This document shows, one piece after another, positions 9,925-39,749 of a stretch of DNA of 64,000 nt (positions are counted from its first letter, which is position 1; the number at the start of each line of letters is the position of its first letter). Origin of the DNA: Glandiceps talaboti (Eukaryota > Hemichordata > Enteropneusta > Spengelidae); NCBI RefSeq assembly GCF_964340395.1, contig NC_135555.1, positions 2,669,001 through 2,733,000 of the forward strand, read 5' to 3'. The notes beneath the pieces were generated by a model. The model saw only the letters and a program-made list of their open reading frames with translations. It ran no database searches and was not told the DNA's origin. A program made the translations under genes and the position numbers.

Positions 9925-10335
9925 GTAGATAGGCATACAGAATAAAGACTGTATAGTTCATCCTTACATACATAGACTCCAACATACTTACATCCATCCA
10001 TCCATCCTTACATAGGTCTACAGAATAAAGGCCATTTAGTTCATCCTTACATACATAGACTCCAACATACTTACATCCATCCATCCATCCTTACATAGGT
10101 CTACAGAATAAAGGCCATTTAGTTCATCCTTACATACATAGACTCCAACATACTTACATCCATCCATCCTTACATAGGTCTACAGAATAAAGGCCATTTA
10201 GTTCATCCTTACATACATAGACTCCAATATTCTTACATCCATCCATCCTTACATAGGTCTACAGAATAAAGGCCATTTAGTTCATCCTTAAATACATAGA
10301 CTCCAACATTCCTACATCCATCCATCCTTCCTTAC
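9925..10335. repeat. Minisatellite, about 5 copies of an 80-bp unit
   Basis: Units contain CTACAGAATAAAGGCCATTT, then CATCCTTACATACATAGACT, then a variable number of CATC tetranucleotides. Copy-to-copy differences are few, which suggests recent expansion. Confidence 0.9.
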
Positions 10336-10340
10336 ATACA

Positions 10341-10456: not shown

Positions 10457-10744
10457 GTACATACATAACACAACATGTGCCAACCAACCACAACTAAAAA
10501 CACTGTAGACTTTTGGTGCAATATTTCTGTCAGCCAGCAATGTGAAGACATTGGATATGAAATTATTGACTATTAGAAATATTTGGGTTTGGAAAGTTTC
10601 AGACAAAATAAAGACAGCACACAACACATTATATGAATTTATGTTTTATTCTGTTTAATCAACTTGAAATCAATGTTTCACTATTATTTCAATTTCAGCA
10701 AGGTCCTTGAGATACAAAATTTTACACCTGAAATTTACAAAGAT

Positions 10745-11005
10745 ATTGTGCAGCAGCCAATCAGAACTAGTGTCTGAATGTTAATATGTAAATGTGGGAA
10801 ATATTTTGCATACTGTGCAGCATCCAATCAGAACTAGTGTTTGGATGCTCATATATAAATGTGAAATATTTTGCATATTGTGCAGCAGCCGATCAGAACT
10901 AGTGTCTGGATCCTTAATATTTAAATGTGAAATATTTTGCATATTGTGCAGCAGCCAATCAGAACTAGTGTCTAGATGCTTAATATGTAAATGTGAATTT
11001 TTGCA
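10745..11005. repeat. Tandem repeat, 4 copies of a 65-70 bp unit
   Basis: Each unit contains GCAGCAGCCAATCAGAACTA followed by GTGTCTGGATGCTTAATATG and AAATATTTTGCATATTGTG. Every unit carries a CCAAT box core, though one copy reads CCGAT. The repeat lies downstream of the REV1 stop codon, in its 3' UTR or flank. Confidence 0.9.
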
Positions 11006-11149
11006 TATCAAATGATAATTGATAATAAAATTTACATTTTTCAAATGTTGTAGTCTCTAATTCATTTCTTGTATGTGTGTTCTAAATTCCATAAACCACT
11101 GGGTTTGACTAAAAATACTGTAATGTTGTAGTCATTTCTTCATGTATTG

Positions 11150-11372: not shown

Positions 11373-14217
11373 TCATGTTATTTTGAGCTGACATCCATAC
11401 ACCATTTTAACGATAGATTGAGTTTGACTGTAAATGATGTTGTAGCCATCTTTCCAATGATTTGGGTTACACTGCATCACTTGTCTGTACAGAAAAAACT
11501 ATGAGTCAGTAATCTAGTAAAACAAATTAGTTTTGGTAAAAGTAATCGTTAACTTCAGTATGGAATCACTTCTATTCTGAATCTTTCATTGTTCAAGGCA
11601 TACATATAAAATATTCAAGTTAAGTTCAGTATAGTATTGTGTCTTTCTGCTGATCATTTCTGAGTCACCAATGTGATCAGATGTCTATAAAATCACTTTT
11701 CAACTATTCAACAATTTTACAACAATACTACAAACAGGTGGAAGAATCTTTCAAACAAAATTATCTTTTGATCCTGTACACAATAAGGCATTAAATCCTA
11801 ATGTTTTCGCTTTCAAGAAAAATATAAGTGACTTAGGGGACACGTCCACTATGAGTTGAAAAACTTGAAGTGACAAAATCTCCACCTGTTTGAAGAAAAA
11901 TTTTGGGGAGTAATATGATTCTACCCCGACAAACAGAATTTATGAAAAATTGAGAATAGTATTGATTTGTGAACATTTTGATTGACAAATATGTTGAACA
12001 TGATGGCAGAACCAATGACAAAGACACACATTGTCGTGACATAGACACACGTTGTCGTGACATAGACACACGTTGTCGTGACATAGACACACACTGTCAT
12101 GACATATAACAACCAGGGTAAAAATTCCATATCTGAATGTGTACATCTTGGCTTGCTTGAGGTATGATAACTGATTTTCCCTGCTTGCAACCTTCACTAC
12201 TCTACTACATACAAAATGTCAATGGTTGAACGTCTTACCTTTTCAGATACTTCAGCAACAAATCCACCATTTCTAAATTCTTGTCTTCCACCAACTCACT
12301 CATATACTGAATAAATTGCTGGATGTCTTCTTTTTCAGGATCTGTAAGTTTATATAAAAATAATATCAAGAACTGAAGACTTCAAATTTAACCCTAAATG
12401 TCCATTATCATAAACGGTGATCAACAAGAACCTAGATGTAACAATTCAATTCAATTACTGACCAACGTTTGCATTCTAATCCAAAAAATAACATGACAGC
12501 ATCTTTCTTAAACTTTCACGCTCAAGATCAATTATTAAAATCTTACTAGCTTGTTAAGACATAATGTTTTGTGTATAATATTAGTACTTGTTTGGCTGTA
12601 TCATTGCATGGCCTTGACTTGGGGAAAATACAGTTATAAGTCAAAGTACTACCATGACAATCTAAAAAACAACTAAATACTAGCAGTGAATGTGTGTGTG
12701 TGTGAGTGTGAGTTTGCCTGTGTCTCTGTGTGGAGGTTGTCATCAGTGTATTCCTTACAAACACTTATATATCAACTTCCAGGCTAAACATGAAAATTTA
12801 GAAAGAGAACTCACTTATACAGCTTTGTATCCATTCCTTCAACAATGCCTTCACATCTCTTACTTCTACTCTACCACATAAATTCACACTTTCTTCCTTT
12901 ATTGCAATACTCTGCTCAACTTTGCTGTCACTGCTCATGGGAGCAGTTGCCATGGTAACATCTTCAGAGCTTAGGTCATTAAGATTTGAAATGTCTATTT
13001 CCTCCCCCTTCTCTAGTTTGTTTACATCTGGGATATTTCCTGATTTGTTTCTATGACTACCATCACCCGTTGCCACAACCAACATGTTCTGAATATTTCT
13101 CTGTTTGTTTTTCCAGTCAGTTTTCATTTTCAGTGGACTTCCTTTTCTTGGTCGTCCAGGTCCTCGGGAAAACTTGCCAGGACTTGTTTTCTTCTTAGGT
13201 CCTTTCTTTGGTGATATTAATTTTACAGTTTTAGGTTTTGATGTTTCTCTAGAGTCTTTGGGCTCATTGTAATTTTGGCGACCTTTATCTTTATATGTAT
13301 TTTTCAGTTCCTCCTGCAGCTCAAGTGGTAATGCCTCCATAAAGCTGGGATCAATCTGAAATGGTGAATATAGCAATTAAAAAAAACATGGACAATACTG
13401 GCACTAATACACAACTGATTTAAGTGAATTATTCACTTGATAAAGTTGGTCATTTTGGCATAATGACAGTAAGGATTGTTTGCCCAAAGAGAAGGAATGA
13501 AAGAAGATTTTGTTGTATGTTTGTATTTTGATAGAAGGTACTTTCTCTCAATAAGTTCCTTCCACATTATATGACAGTACTATCACTTACTAGATTATTG
13601 AAGTTGTTTAGTTTTTCAGTGAATTATGCAGTAAATAGGCACAAAAAACGCTTGAATTTCTGAATAGTTTTGCATCTCAGTGGGTATATTAAAGAATCTG
13701 ATTCAAAGTTAACATAACAAGTCTATACAATAAAATGGCATATTGAAGTCCTCTACCTGTGAGAATGATAGATGGGTTGGTATGGAGTCTTCATCTTCTG
13801 TATGTCTTTTACTTGGTACACTCAGACCACTTGGACCTGCTATGGCTGCTTCAACCAATAGTCTTTTGTCTTTCTTGATGTCATTAGTTCGTTGAGTCTT
13901 TCCTCTAGTGTGTTCAGATGTCTGTGGCATCATTTCTCCAGTGTGTTCAGATATCACTTCTGTTTGTTCTGAAGTTTCTTGCTCTGTTCCCAGTTCACCA
14001 ATTAGTAGATCTTTCACTACGTCAGCCGGCAGTTCACGTACAACTGAAACATCCCACTTAGATGGTAAGTTGTAGTTTGACGGCACTAAATTCCTACAAA
14101 TATACACATCAACATCATAGTATGTAGAACAAAATGCACCAAATACTCAAAAACTAAATACTAATTTTTTTTATTTCATCATTGTATCTAGTTATTGCTT
14201 TATGTCGATGTTGAATG

Positions 14218-14261
<44 letters not shown>

Positions 14262-17200
14262 GTATGTATAAAGACAAAATATTTTGAAAATTATGATTAT
14301 TGACTAGTAACTAATACATTTGTTTGATTGATTGATTGATTATTGATGGATGGATGGAGCGAGTGATTTGATTAACTGTTTGACTGATTGATTGATCAAT
14401 CTCTTGATCATAACATGTATATACCTTGATGGGATAGTTTGGTTTCTGGCTGCATATCCTTGTTCTATTTGTTGTCTGATATTAGTTGGTAAGGCTGCCA
14501 ATACAGCTGGATCAACCTGGTCATTAAAGAGAGATAACAGTTTCAATGGTTAGTCATAAGAAAAATGTGTACTACTTGTAGACGGAAGGTAAAGTAAAAT
14601 GAACATAATGAAACCTATGGATTCAAATCAAAATGAGCCAACTTTATAAGTGTCTTTCTGCTATACATTAACATTCGACAAGCCCTGTTTGAGGATACAG
14701 CAAGTCCAATTCCCACATGCCATCTTCAACACATGCATGTGCTTCATTCCTGCATATTGGGATTTAATATGGTATAATTTGACTATCAATATATATGTAT
14801 AAATCAATTATCAAATTTTCGCTAAATCTTGGTCCACATATCAAATTCTCAGCTTCACAAGAGTATTACAGTTAATGTAACAAACCTGGGATGGAGATGG
14901 CAAATACAAGTCTTCATCTCTTATTGCCATGGAAGCAGAACTAGATGTTTCTTCAGTAACCATGGAGGCAGTATTTTGAAGCAAAGACTTGATATTTTGC
15001 TTGGGTCTTGGAGGAGGAGTAACAAAGGTATCCTCTACATCATCTCTAGTGCTAGTAGGTGATGTCATGTCATTAACACTGGAAGATGCTAGTTGTGAGG
15101 TAGATGTCATGTCATTAACACTTGTAGATGCTAGTTGTGAGGTAGATGGTTTGCAGATATTTCTCATCATGTCTAAAACTGACTTGGTACCTTGATCACC
15201 TGGTTTACTACCACATAGTCTATGTACTTGAATGCCAATCTGGTAAATGATGAAATGACAACAATCACAAATACAGCTATATTTAATAGTTTGATGTATC
15301 AATTCAGTTTAATTTGCATAACAATAGAATTGATACTAACATCTGTGGTTGTGCTGATGGTGTGTGCTCATTACAGGCTTATTATCACCTGTTTGAGGGT
15401 GAATGAGGGTGTTTTCTGATAGCTTGAAGTTTCTGCAGAGACTCAGAGGGAAACCGATATTTTTAACAATCTTTTCTCCCTTACCTCATGATTGCACTGG
15501 CACCAGTCACTTGGGAGATTTTTTCTAAGTGTCATATACTGCAAAATTTTTGAGTTTGTTATTCATTTTTAGTTTTGTAAAGGAAAATATACTCAACATT
15601 GTTTTCTAGTTACTACATAGACCCTACATGAAAAATGTTACTAGTAGTGTCCCAAGGGCTTAGGTGTGAGAGATACTGTTGTTAGGATATTTGCATTGTT
15701 GGCTATTCTTGTTTCTTGGTCCTCCTCTTTAAAGTTTCTGTTTCAATTAACTTGGTATGACTAAAACTTATAATATCCCATTCTACAAACTTGCTTCTGT
15801 AATTTCTTAAACCGACAATAAACATTCAACTCTCTTATTTCTTTTACCCTTCTTATTTCTTGAAACTGACACCTCATCCGTTAACATTAATCTTTTCCAA
15901 AGACACTTAGCCCTCTCAAGTCTTGTACCGACATGTTCATTTGTCTAAAACACTAAGACACTTACCCCTCTCAAGTCTTGTACCGACATGTTCATTTGTC
16001 TAAAACACTAAGACACTTACCCCTCTCAAGTCTTGTACCGATATGTTTATTTGTCTAAAACACTAAGTCACTTACCCCTCTCAAGTCTTGTACGATATGT
16101 GCATTCGTCTAAGACACTAAGTCACTTACCCCTCTCAAGTCTTGTACGATATGTTTATTTGTCTAAAACACTAAGTCACTTACCCCTCTCAAGTCTTGTA
16201 CGATATGTGCATTCGTCTAAGACACTAAGTCACTTACCCCTCTCAAGTCTTGTACCGATATGTTCATTTGTCTAAGACACTAAGTCACTTACCCCTCTCA
16301 AGTCTTGTACGATATGTGCATTCGTCTAAGACACTAAGTCACTTACCCCTCTCAAGTCTTGTACGATATGTTTATTTGTCTAAAACACTAAGTCACTTAC
16401 CCCTCTCAAGTCTTGTACGATATGTGCATTCGTCTAAGACACTAAGTCACTTACCCCTCTCAAGTCTTGTACCGATATGTTCATTTGTCTAAGACACTAA
16501 GTCACTTACCCCTCTCAAGTCTTGTACTGATATGTTCATATGTCTAAAACACTAAGTCACTTACCCCTCTCAAGTCTTGTACAGTTATCTTCATATGTCT
16601 AAGACACTAAGTCACTTACCCCTCTCAAGTCTTGTACAGTTATCTTCATATGTCTAAGACACTAAGTCACTTACCCCTCTCAAGTCTTGTACCGATATGT
16701 TCATTTGTCTAAGACACTAAATCACTTACCCCTCTCAAGTCTTGTACGATATGTGCATTCGTCTAAGACACTAAGTCACTTACCCCTCTCAAGTCTTGTA
16801 CGATATGTGCATTCGTCTAAGACACTAAATCACTTACCCCTCTCAAGTCTTGTACGATATGTGCATTCGTCTAAGACACTAAGTCACTTACCCCTCTCAA
16901 GTCTTGTACCGATATGTGCATTCGTCTAAGACACTAAGTCACTTACCACTCTCAAGTCTTGTACCGATATGTGCATTCGTCTAAGACACTAAATCACTTA
17001 CCCCTCTCAAGTCTTGTACGATATGTGCATTCGTCTAAGACACTAAGTCACTTACCCCTCTCAAGTCTTGTACGATATGTGCATTCGTCTAAGACACTAA
17101 ATCACTTACCCCTCTCAAGTCTTGTACGATATGTGCATTCGTCTAAGACACTAAGTCACTTACCCCTCTCAAGTCTTGTACCGATATGTGCATTCGTCTA

Positions 17201-20200
17201 AGACACTAAGTCACTTACCCCTCTCAAGTCTTGTACGATATGTGCATTCGTCTAAGACACTAAGTCACTTACCCCTCTCAAGTCTTGTACCAGTATCTTC
17301 ATTTGTCTAAGACACTAAGTCACTTACCCCTCTCAAGTCTTGTACGATATGTGCATTCGTCTAAGACACTAAGTCACTTACCCCTCTCAAGTCTTGTACC
17401 AGTATCTTCATTCGTCTAAGACACTAAGTCACTTACCCCTCTCAAGTCTTGTACAGTTATCTTCATATTTCTAAGACACTAAGTCACTTACCCCTCTCAA
17501 GTCTTGTACAGTTATCTTCATATGTCTAAGACACTAAATCACTTACCCCTCTCAAGTCTTGTACAGTTATCTTCATATTTCTAAGACACTAAGTCACTTA
17601 CCCCTCTCAAGTCTTGTACAGTTATCTTCATATTTCTAAGACACTAAGTCACTTACCCCTCTCAAGTCTTGTACAGTTATCTTCATATTTCTAAGACACT
17701 AAGTCACTTACCCCTCTCAAGTCTTGTACAGTTATCTTCATATGTCTAAGACACTAAATCACTTACCCCTCTCAGGTCTTGTACCAGTATCTTCATTCGT
17801 CTAAGACACTAAGTCACTTACCCCTCTCAAGTCTTGTACAGTTATCTTCATATGTCTAAAACACTAAGTCACTTACCCCTCTCAAGTCTTGTACAGTTAT
17901 CTTCATATGTCTAAAACACTAAGTCACTTACCCCTCTCAAGTCTTGTACAGTTATCTTCATATGTCTAAGACACTAAGTCACTTACCCCTCTCAAGTCTT
18001 GTACAGTTATCTTCATATGTCTAAGACACTAAGTCACTTACCCCTCTCAAGTCTTGTACAGTTATCTTCATATGTCTAAGACACTAAGTCACTTACCCCT
18101 CTCAAGTCTTGTACAGTTATCTTCATATGTCTAAGACACTAAGTCACTTACCCCTCTCAAGTCTTGTACAGTTATCTTCATATGTCTAAGACACTAAGTC
18201 ACTTACCCCTCTCAAGTCTTGTACCAGTATCTTCATTTGTCTAAGACACTAAGTCACTTACCCCTCTCAAGTCTTGTACAGTTATCTTCATATGTCTAAG
18301 ACACTAAGTCACTTACCCCTCTCAAGTCTTGTACAGTTATCTTCATATGTCTAAGACACTAAGTCACTTACCCCTCTCAAGTCTTGTACCAGTATCTTCA
18401 TTTGTCTAAGACACTAAGTCACTTACCCCTCTCAAGTCTTGTACAGGTATCTTCATATTTCTAAGACACTAAGTCACTTACCCCTCTCAAGTCTTGTACC
18501 AGTATCTTCATTTGTCTAAGACACTAAGTCACTTACCCCTCTCAAGTCTTGTACCAGTATCTTCATTTGTCTAAGACACTAAGTCACTTACCCCTCTCAA
18601 GTCTTGTACAGTTATCTTCATATGTCTAAGACACTAAGTCACTTACCCCTCTCACGTCTTGTACAGGTATCTTCATATTTCTAAGACACTAAGTCACTTA
18701 CCCCTCTCAAGTCTTGTACAGTTATCTTCATATGTCTAAGACACTAAGTCACTTACCCCTCTCAAGTCTTGTACAGTTATCTTCATATGTCTAAGACACT
18801 AAGTCACTTACCCCTCTCACGTCTTGTACAGGTATCTTCATATTTCTAAGACACTAAGTCACTTACCCCTCTCAAGTCTTGTACAGTTATCTTCATATGT
18901 CTAAGACACTAAGTCACTTACCCCTCTCAAGTCTTGTACAGTTATCTTCATATGTCTAAGACACTAAGTCACTTACCCCTCTCAAGTCTTGTACAGTTAT
19001 CTTCATATGTCTAAAACACTAAGTCACTTACCCCTCTCAGGTCTTGTACAGTTATCTTCATATGTCTAAGACACTAAATCACTTATGCCTCTCAGGTCTT
19101 GTACAGTTATCTTCATTTGTCTAAGACACTAAGTCACTTACCCCTCTCAAGTCTTGTACCGATATGTTCATAGTTCTAAGACACTAAGTCACTTACCCCT
19201 CTCAGGTCTTGTACAGTTATCTTCATATGTCTAAAACACTAAGTCACTTACCCCTCTCAAGTCTTGTACAGTTATCTTCATATTTCTAAGACACTAAGTC
19301 ACTTACCCCTCTCAAGTCTTGTACAGTTATCTTCATATGTCTAAGACACTAAGTCACTTACCCCTCTCAAGTCTTGTACAGTTATCTTCATATGTCTAAA
19401 ACACTAAGTCACTTACCCCTCTCAGGTCTTGTACAGTTATCTTCATATGTCTAAAACACTAAGTCACTTACCCCTCTCAAGTCTTGTACAGTTATCTTCA
19501 TATGTCTAAGACACTAAGTCACTTACCCCTCTCAAGTCTTGTACAGTTATCTTCATATGTCTAAGACACTAAGTCACTTACCCCTCTCAGGTCTTGTACA
19601 GTTATCTTCATATGTCTAAAACACTAAGTCACTTACCCCTCTCAGGTCTTGTACAGTTATCTTCATATGTCTAAGACACTAAGTCACTTACCCCTCTCAA
19701 GTCTTGTACAGTTATCTTCATATGTCTAAGACACTAAGTCACTTACCCCTCTCAAGTCTTGTACAGTTATCTTCATATTTCTAAGTAACGTCAAACATTC
19801 CCTGGTGATAATATCAGCATTGTCAGTAGGTGTCCCAAGTGTAGATGATTTAGCAAAATTATCACATACACCATGACCCATGAACTTGGCAGGGTCAACT
19901 GGAGCACCAGCTTTTCTCACTTTCAGCTTTAAAGTGATACTTTTCCCCTTCATCTTGATGTTTGTTAGTCTGTTCTTCACCTCTTGTGATAGTTTGGAGA
20001 TAAACTCTTCAGCATCACTGTCCTGAAAAAACAGTTTAGAAGATATTCATAGTTGTATTAACTGGATAACATTTATACAATGGTCATACAGAGGACGGAA
20101 TAATTTGTCCTGCTATTATTTTCCTTCATGAGTACTTAACAAAATTGAAAAATAAATGTTTTGTAGCTTTTAGACTATTATCACAATTAAGTGTATCATT

Positions 20201-21413
20201 AAGTTTAGACATAGAGAAATAGACTTCTCTACAATTTTGTTGATCAAATTTTAATATAGTTCCACAACTGTTTATCATACCCAATTATCAATCCTAATCC
20301 AACACTGGCCTTTAGTTCTGGAATGACCAGTACTTTATAAATACTGAAATGTCAGTCCAGATTAGGACTAAATGTTGGGTGGGAAAAACAGTTATCTTTA
20401 CTTTTATCTATACTTTTTGAAAAAGAATGATCCTGTGCTACTACCCTTTATGGCTCCACTGATAAGGTAACACTAATGGTGGGGGAGGGGGGAGATGTGA
20501 AGAGATTGAACCCTCGTCTTTCTCGCAAATTGTTTTTCATACCGTGGTAAATCGTATCCCATAGTTGATTTCAGCTGACACTGATTTACGTTCCCGATCT
20601 ACAGTAATAGCTCTGTCATCTTCTCCTCTACTATACTGGTACAGAGACTGACCAGTTTTAGGTCCAAAGTCTTTCTGTAATGTGCGTAATGGTACTTGCT
20701 GTAGATCACCACAACACTTCACTCCCATATTGCTAAGTCTGTGACCCAATGACCGTCCTATACCTGAACAGAAATACAGGTGAAATAGTCAAAAATCAAG
20801 AAATACAAGTAACAATCATTATACATCCAATGAAATACAACAGATATTAAAATGACCACCAAATAATATTAGTGAAATTATAAAAGTCAAGACATTTTTT
20901 TTATTACAGCCTTCTCATGGGTTTAAATAATTATTACCCTCTTAGCAATAACATTATGAAATATGATTTCACATTTGTTCATCCATCAAATTCATATAAT
21001 TTCATAAATCATGATGTAATTCTTCATTTAATACCTCATCTAGTAATATGATTGCACCATGTGTTTCTTTTCAGCCATGCATTCTATCACATATTCAGTA
21101 AATCATTCACAATGTATCATTCTGTATTGTATAACATTTCTACACACTAAAACCCTGCTTTTCTATAATTCCCTAGTGATACAGGTATATCATATCATTG
21201 GGTTAAACCCCTAGACTGGTTTTAATGATGATTTTTTGTACACACCTGGGAGGTCTTTGATTGGCTGAGTCTTAATGAATTCTTTGACATCATCGTGTTC
21301 TAGGTAATACTGGCCATTAGGCTTGGCTACACGGGTTGCCATTCTTGCCAGAAGGATATTAGAAGCTGGAATAGAGATGACTTGCTGAAATTGTTTTTTG
21401 ACAACACACAAAG

Positions 21414-21498
<85 letters not shown>

Positions 21499-24400
21499 TT
21501 TCAGTGTGAACATATATACATTCATTGTATATATCAAATTCCACATAAATATGATGACATTTTGAAAAGTAACTGTCATTGTTTCAAATTAGCCCCTCTC
21601 TGGTACATTGGTTTAAAACCACTTCAACATCACTTCACTGTATATTAAAAGGTTAACCATGTCATGTTGTTACAGGTCCATTTAATCATACACTATTTAC
21701 AATATGACAATCTTACCCAGCCCAGCTGATGCTGTACAGCCTGTCTTGCTATAAATCTCATCTCTCCAAACAGTACTGAGTTGTAGTGGTGTAATACCAG
21801 TGTCTTGTAGTAGATCAGTCACATCAATCAACATTTCATCACAACTTACAGCTTCTATGTCATGTGTATACCTGTACACATTTCATAAATATGTTTAACT
21901 TGTAAGACTAAACTGAAATGTTGTCTTATGAAGTTCTTTCAAAATAATTATTCAACAACAAAAACAAGACTTTCTGTTATAAATAAAGTTTGCAATAAAG
22001 GATACAATTATTATTCCATTCCTATTAAATTGTAATCTGGGTTATGTTGATGTTTTATTAATGGTGTGTGATGTTTTTTTGCATAAAGATAGTCACATTT
22101 CAACTCCAAACTTACCATAACAGAGACACCACACACAGCAGGATCCTTTGAATTACTTTTGATCCAAACACAAACTTGAAAATTATTGCCTGAAACTTTT
22201 GATGGCGTACTTCAGTCTTTGTCAACAGATTGACCCATTATTCAGAAAAATAGCAGAATCCTTTACCAACCATTGAAAGCATTGCTATTCTTTTTTAGTG
22301 CAGTAGAAACAGCCTATTGCGGAAATGACTACACATGGACTTGATGATGAAAATGGTCTACTTTATAATCTTTTGATTCAAATGATGAAAGTTCTCTTTG
22401 CCAGTCATGATATAGCTAAGGGACATGAAATGACCCTTGGGACATGACCTTAAGTCGTCTACCCCCTTTACAATATACTAGGCCTATTGCGGAGAATAGT
22501 CCAAAATATTGAAATCTCACCTGGCTATAGTTTCATACAGTAGTTGAGAGACCTCCTTGTATTTATCAAAGTCATATGGAATTGTTTGTAGATTTGGACA
22601 TAGTTTCTTGGCTTGTCCCATAAACATTCCGTTCTTGATTCCAGCTTTTCTGGCTTCATAGCTACAGGACGCAATCTCAGCCATGGAATTAAATTCTTCA
22701 GTCTTTGCAACTTTAGATTTGTCATTGTTTGATTCTGACTTTGTATTATTTGTATTGCTGTCATCACCACTGTTATGATGTTTATCAGAACCTTTACTCA
22801 TTACGCTTGCTTTCTTTCCTTTCAATGTTTTCTCTTTCCAAACTCTTTCATAATAATCCCTTTCATATGCGATATCAGCAGCTGAACGATTTGTCTGGGC
22901 ACTTTTACCTCTAGAGTGTGTTACAGCTACTGGTTTCCCTTTCAGTTCTGGTCGACTAAGCAACCCAACAGATACAAAGAAACAATCCATGTCCAAGTGC
23001 ATAATAGTCCTACCATACTTCGTAGATATTTGAGATGTGACATTTTCACAAAGTTTCCGTAATGTTTCTCTGCCTGGAAAGCTTGTATCTCCTTCACTTT
23101 GTAATCTACTGACAAATGCCTTCCACTCAGCTCCCCATGTTGAGATATGATGTAATCGAGAATGACTGTAAAACTCAGCCAAGTAGTTGGGATCCTGAGC
23201 ATTTGAAGGTGACCTTTGCTCTTTGACCTTTGTCCTGTCAGTTTGACCTGCAACATCTCCTGGTGACACTTTTGATTGTTCAGAGCTTTTATCACCTGAT
23301 AATAAAATGTTTCCATCTCCACTAGAAGTATCAGAGGGGCTCTTTATTTCCGAACTTTCCAGTAATTCTTCTTTGAAACCTTCATCAGACATCATTGACA
23401 CATCTGATACCTGATTGGTCAAGGAAGATCCCGATCTTTCATTGGTTAACATTTCATTTTGTCCACTGTCTTCACAAGGACTAGTTTGATTGGTGGATGG
23501 ATTCTCATTTGTTGATTCACTCTTGTGAATCTTACCAAATGGCATTCCAGGTTGTATTTTAGACTGTTGGGTGTACAGTAAATAAGGGGAACAGGACAAT
23601 AATCTGCCAGCTTTGATACTGTCATGGAGTGAGAAAGAAAAAACATAAACTTTTAGACTTTATCCCAAGAGAGTTGAAAAGTTTATCATATCATAGTTAC
23701 TCAACTAATTCAAAAATCCAACTTTTAATCTGTGACATTATATGATTACAATAAAAGATTTTAACAACCACAAAAAAGTTTGGTTCTGATGAGTTATTTA
23801 AATACTATTCTTGAGTAACAGAAAGGGAGAAAGGGGTAAAAATAGCAGTGTTTCCCCTTAGAGTCTATTGTAATTTTGTTTATGAACCCAGGTAAAATGA
23901 CATGGGAGCCCCACTAGATTTTACCTACTTACCACCTTTAGCAAAAACACTCAAAACACTCCCAACTGTGAAAGCATTTCCAAGAATATTTCATTAGTCT
24001 TAAACTGTTTTCCCTTGATTCAGTATGAATTCTAAAGAAAAGTCTTCATTGAAAGATATTGCTAATGAGCTTAATACTAGTGGCTTCATATAAGAGTGAC
24101 CCTATTTTTCTTTCTGTTTCTCATTACCCAACCGACTCAAATTTTCAGCTCCGACATCAAAATAAAAAAGAAATTCTTGCCCACCCTTCATATTTTGAGA
24201 AACAGCAAGAAGAAGCAAGTGTCTCAACTGTCGATGTAATCTGCAGTCATGGCAGCAACTACAACACTTGTTCACAAACAGAGCATTTCTTTCATGACGG
24301 AAGTTATTCAAGTAGGGCCTGAGAACATGCCAATTGTGTAGAGAAGCTGGGAAAGGGCTTGTTACCAGGATTCCGATAAAAAGAAGATAGAGAGGAGGAA

Positions 24401-25885
24401 AAGGAGAGAAACATGAAGAAGATGATTTTTTTTATAAATTGACTAACCGACCCATAGTTGCCATGAAAAAGTAATGAGAAAAAAAATGGGTCACCCTAAC
24501 AACAAGATGGGGCAACTTGAGTTTTTATACACCTAGAACCACAGCCAATGATTTAAATTATCCAATGTCACCACTATAACTCACCTGTCCACAATCCAGT
24601 CTGGTTTCACTACTTTTTTGTCCTTTAAATCTCGTATTTTACCATGAGGTAGATTAGTAGCTATGATGTGAGTAACACCAGCTTTACTGTAATAATATTG
24701 ATGATTTCCACCATGTAACATCATTAATCTCTTCAGCTCATCAGATGATGGTACTGTCGTAAAAAAACAATAATACTATCTCATGAAGGTTTATCAGTAT
24801 GCCGGTAAATAAATGACCAACAAAGAAATATAAAATCTGAACAAAAGTATTAGTGACATCCACCATATTTCAAGTGATTTTTTTTTTTAAATTTTCCTTT
24901 TTGGAAATGCCATCTCAAATATATCTCTAGTCAAGTTGCTTTGAATGAATACATTGGTAAAACTTAATACCTGTATATCCATTGATGTAGATCCTGATAC
25001 CCTCAAAGATCTTGGAACTTGATCCTTGGCGTTGTATTTGCAATGGTACACTTTCCTTGAATTGTTCATTTAGCTTACGTTTCTTGGCAGCCATATAACC
25101 ACCCTATAAAAATTGTCAAAATTATACATTCAAGTGTGTCTAGATTTGTGATTTTCCTTTCTTCGTTTTATATGTTCCAAACTGATGACAGTTGCCATGG
25201 TATCGAGATCAGGTTTTAATAGTTTACAATCAGACATTGACAGTCTCTCATCACCCACCCAAACCCCACCCTACTCCACCCCATTGTCTTCTTATTAGAT
25301 ATTAATATTTCACGGTGAGTGAACTTGTGCGATCACAGAAACAAGTGTAAGTTTAGCCCTTTCATATATAGTTGGCTAAATACGTCAATATTATCGATAT
25401 TATCGACATTTTATTGTATTCTGATAGAAATGTTCTGATACATATCCCGAGGAACAAGTACCTGTGCCCATGTACTGTAAAGTTACACCATAGATGTATT
25501 AGTAAGACGGTTATAGTAACTGACAACATCGTTGGATGGATGTATTAGAGTCTCCCCCAATAGTCATAGGAAAGTAATTTCCACGTAACACTATGTAAAT
25601 TCAATCTTGATTCTACTAAAGTCTTAATTCACCAATCAAGGTATTCAAATTCATAGATTATTAAAGCACCAATGTGTCCCATAATTAGTAATCAGAAACT
25701 CACAGATTCAACTCAGAAATCGGGAAATACACAGACTAAGAGAAAGAAAATAACTTATTCAAAGCATTGAATTTGATCATGATTTGATGTAGTATCAACA
25801 TCCATGTTCAAAAGTACGCATTGTGAATAATACATACTTGTTCAGCCCAACCATCATCAGACCATTTTCTCCGTCCCCTACTCAT
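11373..25885 (-). CDS. REV1: DNA repair protein REV1 (Y-family deoxycytidyl transferase), 14 coding exons
   Basis: REV1 inserts dCMP opposite G, abasic sites and bulky lesions, and scaffolds other translesion polymerases in the nucleus. Coding exons, 5' to 3': 25838-25885, 24971-25103, 24585-24753, 22521-23618, 21717-21871, 21246-21365, 20543-20763, 19747-20022, 14886-15239, 14425-14516, 13757-14093, 12815-13355, 12239-12341, 11373-11484. All junctions are GT-AG and in phase; the total is 3759 nt (1252 aa, against 1251 in human). Start: MSRGRRKWSDDGW, then GGYMAAKKRKL as in human. The BRCT domain lies at about 50-135, with HIIATNLPHGKI and WIVDSIKAGRLL. The N-digit segment SRLHHIS is at about 270. 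Palm metal ligands are in LDMDCFFVSVG (about 325) and SCDE (D494/E495). Next come the little-finger domain (KSVSAEINYGIRF), UBM1 (VDPAVLAALP, about 859), UBM2 (IDPSFMEALP, about 1002) and the C-terminal partner-binding domain ending YGCQLKIT. A Ser/Asp-rich linker follows the BRCT. The intron at 15240-19746 is mostly a minisatellite made from exon 8's own end. Confidence 0.95.
12015..12105. repeat. 21-bp tandem repeat, about 4 copies, in the last REV1 intron
   Basis: The unit TTGTCGTGACATAGACACACG has a period of exactly 21 bp. This leaves minus-strand frames open with 7-residue repeats (VSMSRQR). It lies between REV1 exons 13 and 14, so it is intronic and the frames are not genes. Confidence 0.85.
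14220..14275. repeat. (TA)n(TATG)n microsatellite in a REV1 intron
   Basis: A run of TA dinucleotides passes into TATG tetranucleotides, followed at 14320-14400 by TTGA/TGGA-rich low-complexity sequence. It lies in the intron between REV1 exons 10 and 11. Confidence 0.95.
15240..15904 (-). other. REV1 intron segment between exon 9 and the minisatellite
   Basis: Single-copy intron sequence. Short direct repeats of CTTCTTATTTCTT and of ACTGACACCTC-like sequence at 15830-15880 mark the approach to the array. The exon 9 acceptor is CATTTACCAG at 15240-15249, giving the junction DLRG|IGIQVHRL. I see no gene in it. Confidence 0.7.
15905..19790. repeat. Minisatellite of about 70 copies made from the REV1 exon 8 / intron boundary
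   Basis: This is a near-perfect tandem array with a unit of 55 bp, or 54 in a variant. On the minus strand the unit is CTTAGAAATATGAAGATAAC, then TGTACAAGACTTGAGAGGGG, then TAAGTGACTTAGTGT. Its first 39 nt equal the last codons of REV1 exon 8 (LRNMKITVQDLRG). The next 16 nt are the start of the intron, including the donor GTAAGT. The copy at 19747-19785 is the real exon end. Three sequence types are visible next to CTTGTAC: CAGTTATCTTCAT (nearest the exon), CAGTATCTTCATTTG, and CGATATGTGCATTCG (far end). The 54-bp type gives 18-codon open frames on the plus strand that are not genes. Copies with the intronic CTTAGACATATG or the exonic CTTAGAAATATG junction both occur. Confidence 0.95.
21418..21493. 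repeat. (TG)n microsatellite in a REV1 intron
   Basis: About 37 TG dinucleotides, 53 bp upstream (in the gene's direction) of the acceptor of REV1 exon 6 (21246-21365). The run sits close to the polypyrimidine tract. Confidence 0.98.
24093..24497. mobile_element. About 405-bp inverted-repeat element in REV1 intron 3
   Basis: The left end AGAGTGACCCTATTTTTCTT leads on to TCTCATTAC. It is matched in inverse by GTAATGAGAAAAAAAATGGG and TCACCCT at the right end, giving TIRs of about 30 bp. The interior is open for short stretches on both strands without recognisable domains. It is a non-autonomous DNA transposon by structure. Confidence 0.6.
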
Positions 25886-31788: not shown

Positions 31789-34700
31789 ATGGCTGGTACA
31801 CTAGAGGGTAAAGTTTGTATCGTCACTGGAGGAACTCGTGGTATTGGTAAAGGTATTGCCTTACAGCTTGGTGAAGCTGGTGCTACAGTTTATGTGACAG
31901 GTAATATACCATTCTTTTCAAATAAAATTTGTATCACCTCCATGATGTCAGTGTTTAGTTTAGTCTAGAGGACTAGTTATTGGGTTTGATGATTTGTACC
32001 ACCTCCATGATAGCAGTGTTTAGTTTAGTCTAGAGGACTAGTTATTGGGTTTGATTCCAAACAGCTAAAGAGATCTTTAGATTCAAACCCAACAGCTATA
32101 TTCAATGTAGACTATAATATTATATTGGTTTAAATAGTATATTTATTTTTAGTACGTAACTAGTACTGTTATGTTTCATACTTTTTCGGTTTTATTTTCA
32201 ATTGAGTTATATTGTATACTTGTTTGTAGCCTACCTATAGCCATGAAGGACTAACACTAATAATGACATTATTTCAGTTATCCTAACTGTAGCCTACCTA
32301 CAGCCTTGAAGGACTAACACTAATAGTGACACTATCAGCTATACTATAAACTGTCATTTTGATTTTGTTTTTAATTTCACTCTTAATATATGGATGGCTA
32401 ATCAAATAGAATCTTTATTGCATCTATTAAGAAAACCACATTTCTTCATTGAATTTTCTGCAATAAATGTTTGGTGCTAAAATATTTAGGGTTGTTGACA
32501 AATCATATTTACCCAAAGTCTAGTCAGTGTACAATACCATCACTTACAAGTAGACAGAGAACTCAGCTAATTAGAAAAAATTGAATTATTTCTATTAAAA
32601 GTTAGATATTTTCCAGTGGGTGAAAAGTAATAAAAAGTAGTGAAAGTTACTATGGTTACAGCTACTTGGCCTTTAAATATTGTATTTCAAAATATTCTTT
32701 CCTTATCAGCTGTTGACCTTTAACCTTCAATGACAAGTACATCATTCCGTCATCTGTTCTTATGCAATCAAGGGCAAAGTTTGGTTTTCAGCAACAAATA
32801 TACACATTGTTGATAAAATATTTACTGATTAACAGGTATGAATCAATGAAGGAGCAGAATTTTTGATTTTTTAAGTTTTAATTTTTACTGATTATCATGT
32901 ATGATAGGAGCAGAATTTCTGATTTTTTAAGTTTTAGTTTTTACTGATTATCATGCCATTTTATAGTTATCAGCTCTTCTTATTGATTTCTCTGTTAAAG
33001 AATTCGTTCCTCTGTTCTTATCTTTAAAGTAACCTTTGCCCAACAATTAAGAACATTTTTTGAGAAAGATTTGATGAATTTATCTTTTAAAATTGTACTA
33101 GCTCTGTAAGGAATTGATGTGTCATTGACAGAAATTGATTATCTCTTAGCATAGTAACTGCTGTGAAGTTTGATATGATATCAATAATTGACACAACTTA
33201 GTTCTCATTGCCAATTGACACGTGTTCACTGTGCTTGGGACAATGCCCTTTTTGTATTCAACATGTGACTCTGCATAATAGCATTTTATCTTAATGCTGC
33301 TACAAGGTCAAAATAGAACAAGAAGGTCAACTTTATTTTCTCATGCACACCTAAAAAGAAGTTCAAAAGTTAACACTGAGGGAGCATAATCATTCAATCA
33401 TGAGAAAATTTTACATTGGGTTGGCATGGATAACCATGAATTAATTTTTTTATACATATTACAGTGTTACTAAGATTTTTTCTTAAAAGATAGAAAAATA
33501 ATTTCTGTATGGTATTTAAAATAGTATTGATTATTGTGACAGTAAGTTTTGTACTTTGATGAAGCAGTTTTATGTTTTACCTTACATCATATCCAGATAT
33601 CACATCATGTAACCATGGATACTCTGAGCTAATACTATTATTCTATCAAATCCTATAGAAGAAAAGTATGTTTTATGCTAATTTTATGTCTCTCTAAAAT
33701 TGATAACAACATTTTAAAATCCCTTCAGATCTTAATTTTTCTATTCAAATTATTGACTGTACAGGTATAGCTCTTTGACATTGATTTAATTATGAATACC
33801 ATGATTTACTAATCACCATTTACTCCTAATTACCATTTACTTCTCTCATCTTTTTGTCTTTGATAACAGGCAGGACATTGACTCCAAAGTCATCAGAATA
33901 TCCTGGCTCATTGCAAGAAACTGCTGAAGAGGTTAGCTACCTTTTATCGTAGAATTTAATAATTTACATTAATCTATCTTATAGCTATTGAAACTGAAAT
34001 ATAATTCTTTTCCCATAAAAATATAAAAACTGACTCTCTAAAGTTTGACATATTTTTGCCACACAGAGCTCAAATTAAACTTCTATCCGTGTAGTCAGCC
34101 AGATTCAACTATTAAAGTGAACTGTTTCACCTCCAGTTTCCTTTGACAGACCATAGCTACGAACATATGAATTTATAACTCTGGATACAATGTTTAAATT
34201 CCTGTGTACTCTGGACTACTGCTAATTTTGAGCCTGTTACACCGTATGTTGGTACTATAGATTTTGTAGTTAAACCCTGATTTGACCTTTGGCATTAAAA
34301 CATAGTGAAACACACTATAGTGTAATCTATGGGTTTAAGGCACAAACCTCTCAATTATATGATCGTTGTGTTATAAAAGTATTGTTACAGTACTTTTATG
34401 GTGATTCAGAATGTACTTGTAAGCTGTACAACATGTTCTTTATTTAATTCATATAAGTACACTGGATAAGTATCAGGTTCCCAAAGTTTGCTTTTTTTTT
34501 CTACATATGTGATATTACTTTGTAAAGTTAGACTTGTTGGCATAAGGTGATTTACACACTGTACTGTATCTAGATACAAGGTACAAGAGATCCTGACCTA
34601 AACCATTGTGTTTGATAGGTTTTATCTGATTGCATTAAGTACCTTGTTCCTGTATTGATAACAATTTTATAATACCAAAACACGTGAGATTATAAAAAAT

Positions 34701-39159: not shown

Positions 39160-39743
39160 AGAAATGTACTTCACCTCATGTTTTACATAGACAAAGTGGC
39201 ATATTTCAAAACAGTACGTTATCTTATCCGTAGAAATGTACTTCACCTCATGTTTTACATAGACAAAGTGGCATATTTCAAAACAGTACGTTATCTTATC
39301 CGTAGAAATGTACTTCACCTCATGTTTTACATAGACAAAGTGCCATATTTCAAACCAGTACTTTATCTTATCTGTAGAAATGTACTTCACCTCATGTTTT
39401 ACATAGACAAAGTGCCATATTTCAAACCAGTACTTTATCTTATCTGTAGAAATGTACTTCACCTCATGTTTTACATAGACAAAGTGCCATATTTCAAACC
39501 AGTACTTTATCTTATCCGTAGAAATGTACTTCACCTCATGTTTTACATAGACAAAGTGCTATATTTCAAACCAGTACTTTATCTTATCTGTAGAAATGTA
39601 CTTCACCTCATGTTTTACATAGACAAAGTGCCATATTTCAAACCAGTACTTTATCTTATCTGTAGAAATGTACTTCACCTCATGTTTTACATAGACAAAG
39701 TGCCATATTTCAAAACAGTACTTTATCTTATCCGTAGAAATGT
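39160..39743. repeat. 72-bp tandem repeat, about 8 copies
   Basis: The unit begins GAAATGTACTTCACCTCATG, continues TTTTACATAGACAAAGTG and ends with a CAGTACTTTATCTTATCYGTA block. The period is exactly 72 bp (24 codons) and a unit lacks stops in at least one frame per strand. Hence frames of 207 codons (+) and 139 codons (-) stay open without being genes. Copies are nearly identical. Confidence 0.95.
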
Positions 39744-39749
39744 ATGAAC

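Follow-up and report, generated by a model that had tools for sequence, protein, structure and literature searches.

In the hemichordate Glandiceps talaboti, intron 8 of the DNA repair gene REV1 begins with a minisatellite of 71 units, each of which repeats the end of a coding exon together with its 5' splice site. We describe it within a window of 64,000 nucleotides (nt) of contig NC_135555.1 (positions 2,669,001 to 2,733,000); coordinates below count from the first letter of this window. The array is a new and unusually long case of the known class of "mirages," in a phylum for which we found no earlier report in the literature searched, a negative only as good as that search. Most probably it is an ordinary minisatellite that the gene tolerates through splicing from the donor nearest the exon. 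We also observe preliminary evidence for a genome-wide, donor-biased class of such arrays in G. talaboti.

Anatomy of the REV1 array

Using the first donor of exon 8, we modeled REV1 as 14 coding exons encoding 1252 amino acids (aa), a product letter-for-letter identical to the NCBI protein P0002, titled "DNA repair protein REV1-like [Glandiceps talaboti]." The 1165-aa part encoded by exons 2 to 12 contains BRCT, IMS, IMS_C, and UBM domains. The 92 aa of exon 8, which presumably form the little-finger domain, match the solved REV1 chain 3gqc_A (E = 2.6e-24), which we take to be human, and the alignment stops exactly at the splice point. The first-pass annotation, made from the letters of the window, had numbered this exon as the eighth, ended it at 19747, and read the repeat unit as its last 39 nt plus 16 nt of intron; all of this is borne out by the 14-exon model, in which the next exon begins at 15239.

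Tandem Repeats Finder (TRF) reports a single array on the minus strand (15900-19785; period, 55; 70.9 copies; 95% matches; score, 6309), and splitting by unit yields 71 copies, with neighbors 55 bp apart in 56 cases and 54 bp apart in 14. About 70 copies at 15905..19790 had been proposed, which places the array correctly and differs slightly in count and extent. Each unit spans an exon-intron boundary, and the outermost copy is the authentic one, with 39 nt of exon 8 (19785-19747) followed by 16 nt of intron. As had been noted, the array fills most of an intron of roughly 4.5 kb, namely, 3847 of 4507 nt (85%). The core GGTAAGT is kept in 69 of the 71 units, the donor reading GGGTAAGTG in 68 and TGGTAAGTG in one. 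The donors of units 13 (GCATAAGTG) and 71 (GGCTAAGTG) are dead; the many equal donors downstream of the true one are real, with 68 bearing GT. Chance is excluded as the cause of this architecture. The features are as follows.

11373..25885, minus strand: coding region of REV1 in 14 exons (1252 aa; sequence identical to P0002)
19747..20022, minus strand: REV1 exon 8, supported by the 3gqc_A match, acceptor TTTTTTCAG; unit 1 takes its exonic part from the last 39 nt (19747-19785)
15240..19746, minus strand: REV1 intron 8, 85% array
15900..19785, minus strand: minisatellite of 71 units (54-55 bp each, running from exon tail through donor to intron head), from TRF and unit splitting
19745..19746, minus strand: GT of the first (authentic) donor, GGG/GTAAGT
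19726..19728, minus strand: in-frame TAG met by any transcript skipping the first donor (LRG-VSDLVS-stop)
19085..19086, minus strand: dead donor of unit 13 (GGC/ATAAGT)
15909..15910, minus strand: dead donor of unit 71 (GGG/CTAAGT), at the junction to unique intron
14886..15239, minus strand: REV1 exon 9, acceptor TTTACCAG/ATTGGC, encoding IGIQVHRL

The 71 units fall into 25 distinct types in non-periodic order, and the longest exact (self-overlapping) repeat in the array is 254 bp; this diversity and this length argue against a simple assembly loop. The copy number is that of one assembly, but inflation by the assembler from one or a few copies is very improbable: divergence also rises with distance along the array, and the genome has 11 further arrays built in the same way (see below). 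Identity to unit 1 declines along the array (Spearman, -0.57 for units 2 to 70), with three internal units identical to unit 1. Exon 8 reads MKI, as do Ptychodera and Saccoglossus, and most distal units differ at this position (e.g., AACATA or AACATG versus the exon's AAGATA). The exon sequence thus seems ancestral, and that of the distal copies derived. We considered whether the array might be driving concerted evolution of exon 8 and dropped this idea, given that the exon keeps MKI while most distal units differ.

An origin from a mobile, introner-like element that brought splice sites with it and was then amplified here is very improbable. Splice-site-carrying repeats do exist in introners, but the REV1 unit derives from the gene's own coding sequence, and a search of the 590-Mb genome matched it at this locus only (best candidates scored, very common words skipped); the other donor arrays have units unrelated to it. 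Short direct repeats at the array ends would fit an origin by slippage and are seen at REV1 (CTT) and at two further arrays, L051 (AACAATGGT) and L054 (AGTT), with none obvious at L055, L057, and L059; this look was unsystematic, and we build no claim on it.

Donor choice and comparison with known arrays

Tandem donors logically pose a problem of splice-site choice. By reading-frame computation, donor 1 gives the complete REV1 protein, and each of the 68 other GT-bearing donors gives the same 746-aa truncated product, which ends LRG-VSDLVS and then a stop. The in-frame stop after VSDLVS is encountered at all 70 downstream positions, if the two dead donors are formally included. The short product loses everything beyond exon 8, including the UBM match at 839-859 of the 1165-aa partial model. 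Nonsense-mediated decay (NMD) in vertebrates follows a 50-nt rule; here the stop precedes the junction by 34 nt for donor 2 and by at least 89 nt from donor 3 on, and transcripts using these later donors would therefore be expected to undergo NMD. Of the 12 donors whose U1 duplex was computed (exons 2 to 13), the first donor of exon 8 is one of the strongest at -11.1 kcal/mol, alongside those of exon 3 (-12.2 kcal/mol) and exon 4 (-11.1 kcal/mol).

We infer first-donor use at exon 8 from the database protein, which fits such splicing, and from the amphioxus precedent. Under the proposed history, a short tandem duplication would once have crossed the boundary of exon 8, taking in the exon end and a few adjoining bases of intron 8, and the duplicated copy could then have expanded to 71 units through unequal exchange or slippage. 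The intact first donor would have stayed beside the exon, and with the spliceosome using this exon-proximal donor, the array would leave with the intron. Its use would be why the array is tolerated and may be nearly neutral.

PMC3087553 describes mirages in amphioxus as minisatellite-like repeats of exon-intron boundaries, found at either boundary in the Adh3 and globin genes; it also notes that their length is unstable and sets out a model for the gain of introns. Globin reverse transcription-PCR and Adh3 data suggest that they do not interfere with splicing. PMC3902484 adds the genes PGBD5 and TnC. The repeats of Adh3, the globins BflGb6 and BflGb9, TnC, and PGBD5 lie across an exon-intron boundary, as those of REV1 do, and the Adh3 units of 10-72 bp compare with 54-55 bp here. 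BflGb6 differs in carrying 3 or 6 units of 150-160 bp at an acceptor (PMC3087553), whereas REV1 has 71 units at a donor. Amphioxus is a cephalochordate and Glandiceps a hemichordate, so the REV1 array falls outside the earlier taxonomic range, which is a matter of record and not of structure. With acceptors searched by one motif, we found donor-type cases alone in G. talaboti, in contrast to either boundary in amphioxus. The Rogers model, as cited in PMC3087553, derives intron gain from duplication of AG/GT sites; it shares with REV1 a tandem duplication over a splice boundary, but the REV1 copies lie inside one intron and no new intron is evident.

A regulatory splicing switch, by which some transcripts would use downstream donors to yield the 746-aa REV1 or be lost to NMD, the array thereby setting the REV1 level, seems to us decidedly unlikely. 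In its favor are 68 intact, strong downstream donors that all lead to one identical product; nearly all of their transcripts would be NMD targets by the vertebrate rule. A partial precedent is the minisatellite of human IFI6 (6-16), which has a 12-bp unit and an in-frame effect. There, donor-bearing repeats follow a real exon, as at REV1, and two downstream repeats are said to serve as donors, producing further isoforms (PMC4526556, citing Turri et al. 1995); at REV1, every downstream donor leads to the stop, and none gives a full-length in-frame product. We found no support for selection on the downstream donors, as variable columns are no scarcer among the six donor columns than expected by chance (P = 0.35). 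The same architecture also occurs at unrelated genes, and amphioxus mirages are reported not to interfere with splicing (PMC3087553).

Some observations weigh against a tolerated array spliced from its first donor. The NCBI REV1 protein may be a homology-guided prediction. Intactness of 68 of the 70 downstream donors could be read as maintenance, although the donor columns give P = 0.35 as above. Finally, variation clusters in 16 columns, at P = 0.013 for a width chosen post hoc; widths of 10, 12, and 20 give P = 0.15-0.21.

Classical duplication experiments on splice sites are reported to have found that position matters. In tandem near-identical donors, strength and local context are nearly constant and only position and number vary. 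The REV1 array, whose 69 intact donors have either a good outcome or a single bad one, is thus a clean natural system in which to study 5' splice-site choice.

Donor-motif arrays across the genome

The array had been described at first as unusual. It is not singular, given the published amphioxus and IFI6 cases and given further arrays of this kind in the same genome. Reading was by eye and unblinded, and covered the 5' end of every distinct donor-motif array among the matches listed, 19 in all (8 for GGTAAGT and 12 for CAGGTRAG, one shared; L049-L067). Eleven start at the end of a coding exon (L051, L054, L055, L056, L057, L058, L059, L061, L063, L064, and L067), and eight do not (L049, L050, L052, L053, L060, L062, L065, and L066). 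Of the 11, L067 has only 7 nt of exon inside the TRF array. At L064 the TRF array begins beyond the exon, the end of which can be read as a divergent unit.

Protein homology was found in five of the 11, at unrelated genes: FHIT (L061; E = 5e-11), phytanoyl-CoA dioxygenase (L059; E = 8e-10), an RCC1 repeat (L058), a galaxin repeat (L064), and an LRRK2-like ARM region (L067; PDB, E = 7e-6, with a Pfam match under its cut-off). The exons of L051, L054, L055, L056, L057, and L063 received no convincing name from Pfam, NCBIfam, or PDB, where not every exon was compared with every library, and their assignment follows from an open frame and an acceptor judged by eye. TRF periods of the exon-anchored arrays are 55, 50, 35, 67 or 31, 77, 80, 71, 68, and 43, with a mixed 43/45/88 at L064; 60 and 27 are the exceptions divisible by 3. 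Periods that are mostly not multiples of 3 are expected if the copies are untranslated.

At the FHIT-like L061 and at L063, the authentic first donor (GTAAAA and GTAGGC, respectively) looks weaker than the later copies (GTAAGA and GTAAGC). These two loci offer a natural test of donor position against donor strength.

Genome-wide, GGTAAGT triplets (gaps of 20-50) number 10449, compared with 4846, 4939, and 4873 for three composition-matched motifs, even though single GGTAAGT is rarer than single TGAATGG, the one control motif so counted (87264 versus 114168). CAGGTRAG triplets (gaps of 51-80) number 2461, versus 757 for the reversed motif. For acceptor motifs the figures are 1495 versus 1313 triplets, with 97599 versus 60944 singles. 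Such counts could reflect a mutational birth bias, with minisatellites arising preferentially at 5' splice sites (e.g., through R-loops or U1-linked transcription effects) beyond what tolerance explains, a possibility that we regard as fairly unlikely. However, long arrays weigh more heavily in triplet counts. With each array among the matches listed counted once, the excess is 8 for GGTAAGT in ~5 Mb versus 28 in 47 Mb for two controls (18 for TGAATGG in 14.8 Mb and 10 for AGATGGT in 32.5 Mb), with a Poisson P of ~0.012, or 0.003 without simple repeats; 6 of the 18 TGAATGG arrays are simple GGAT-type repeats. The controls are also not free of donors, as at least one AGATGGT array has a donor-like site on its other strand (AG/GTAAGAA at C1:32521645).

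A survival bias would give the same pattern. Splicing usually picks the AG that comes first downstream of the branch point. An acceptor array spliced to its first AG would be harmful, and a donor array would not. The donor-acceptor contrast fits tolerance because a duplicated donor keeps the exon clean as long as the first copy is the one used, whereas a duplicated acceptor adds AGs before the exon; a mutational preference for donors would yield this contrast equally.

No evident exon-end start was observed in the seven control arrays read, all from the 18 TGAATGG arrays listed and none from AGATGGT, and seven frames from five TGAATGG arrays had no Pfam match. For acceptors, searched with one motif, 9 of the 42 clusters listed were read, leaving out 28 of a dispersed family and 5 others; none of the nine had a clear exon behind its last copy, and acceptor mirages may well be missed by this approach. 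With L065 left out, the 18 donor arrays differ from the controls at P = 0.008 and from the acceptors at P = 0.003 (Fisher test). The 28 clusters just mentioned belong to a dispersed TTTCCAGGG-rich repeat family (C1 and C2).

Among the matches listed, 3 of 8 GGTAAGT arrays (5 Mb) and 8 of 11 further CAGGTRAG arrays (~67 Mb) are exon-anchored. Rough extrapolation, with wide error, suggests a few hundred exon-anchored arrays in 590 Mb. Our tentative reading, to which we give slightly less than even weight, is that donor-type mirages are found genome-wide in G. talaboti, at probably several hundred loci, biased to the 5' splice site and rare at the 3' site because the exon-proximal donor is taken. 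If so, the genome would offer natural test loci, ranging in copy number from a few to more than 70, for the rule that governs 5' splice-site choice. Mirages would then be a trait common to amphioxus and another deuterostome phylum, no longer an amphioxus curiosity. Should they be common in both groups, donor-spanning tandem duplication would be a mutation that occurs often and is mostly silent, and from which new introns and alternative exon ends might arise.

Other repeats and genes in the window

REV1 exon 9 contains an in-frame 42-bp tandem duplication (TSTSQLASTSVNDM / TSTSQLASSSVNDM; 15057-15148), and repeat turnover has therefore also affected the exon neighboring the array. The region is rich in tandem repeats, with further minisatellites at 9929-10338 (83/79 bp), 10743-11008 (66 bp), 12016-12106 (21 bp), and 39160-39744 (72 bp). 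The last of these, inspected for splice boundaries without a gene model, has no evident coding frame. What we take to be the start of a short-chain dehydrogenase-like gene lies at 31790-31900 on the plus strand (MAGTLEGKVCIVTGGTRGIGKG). The minisatellite beside this exon (31927-32055) was rejected as a splice-boundary array, since it starts ~26 nt inside the intron. Elsewhere in the genome, a 42-bp array (L086) has one frame open for 615 nt (ERLATSYLSRVSSQ repeats) and may be a coding repeat.

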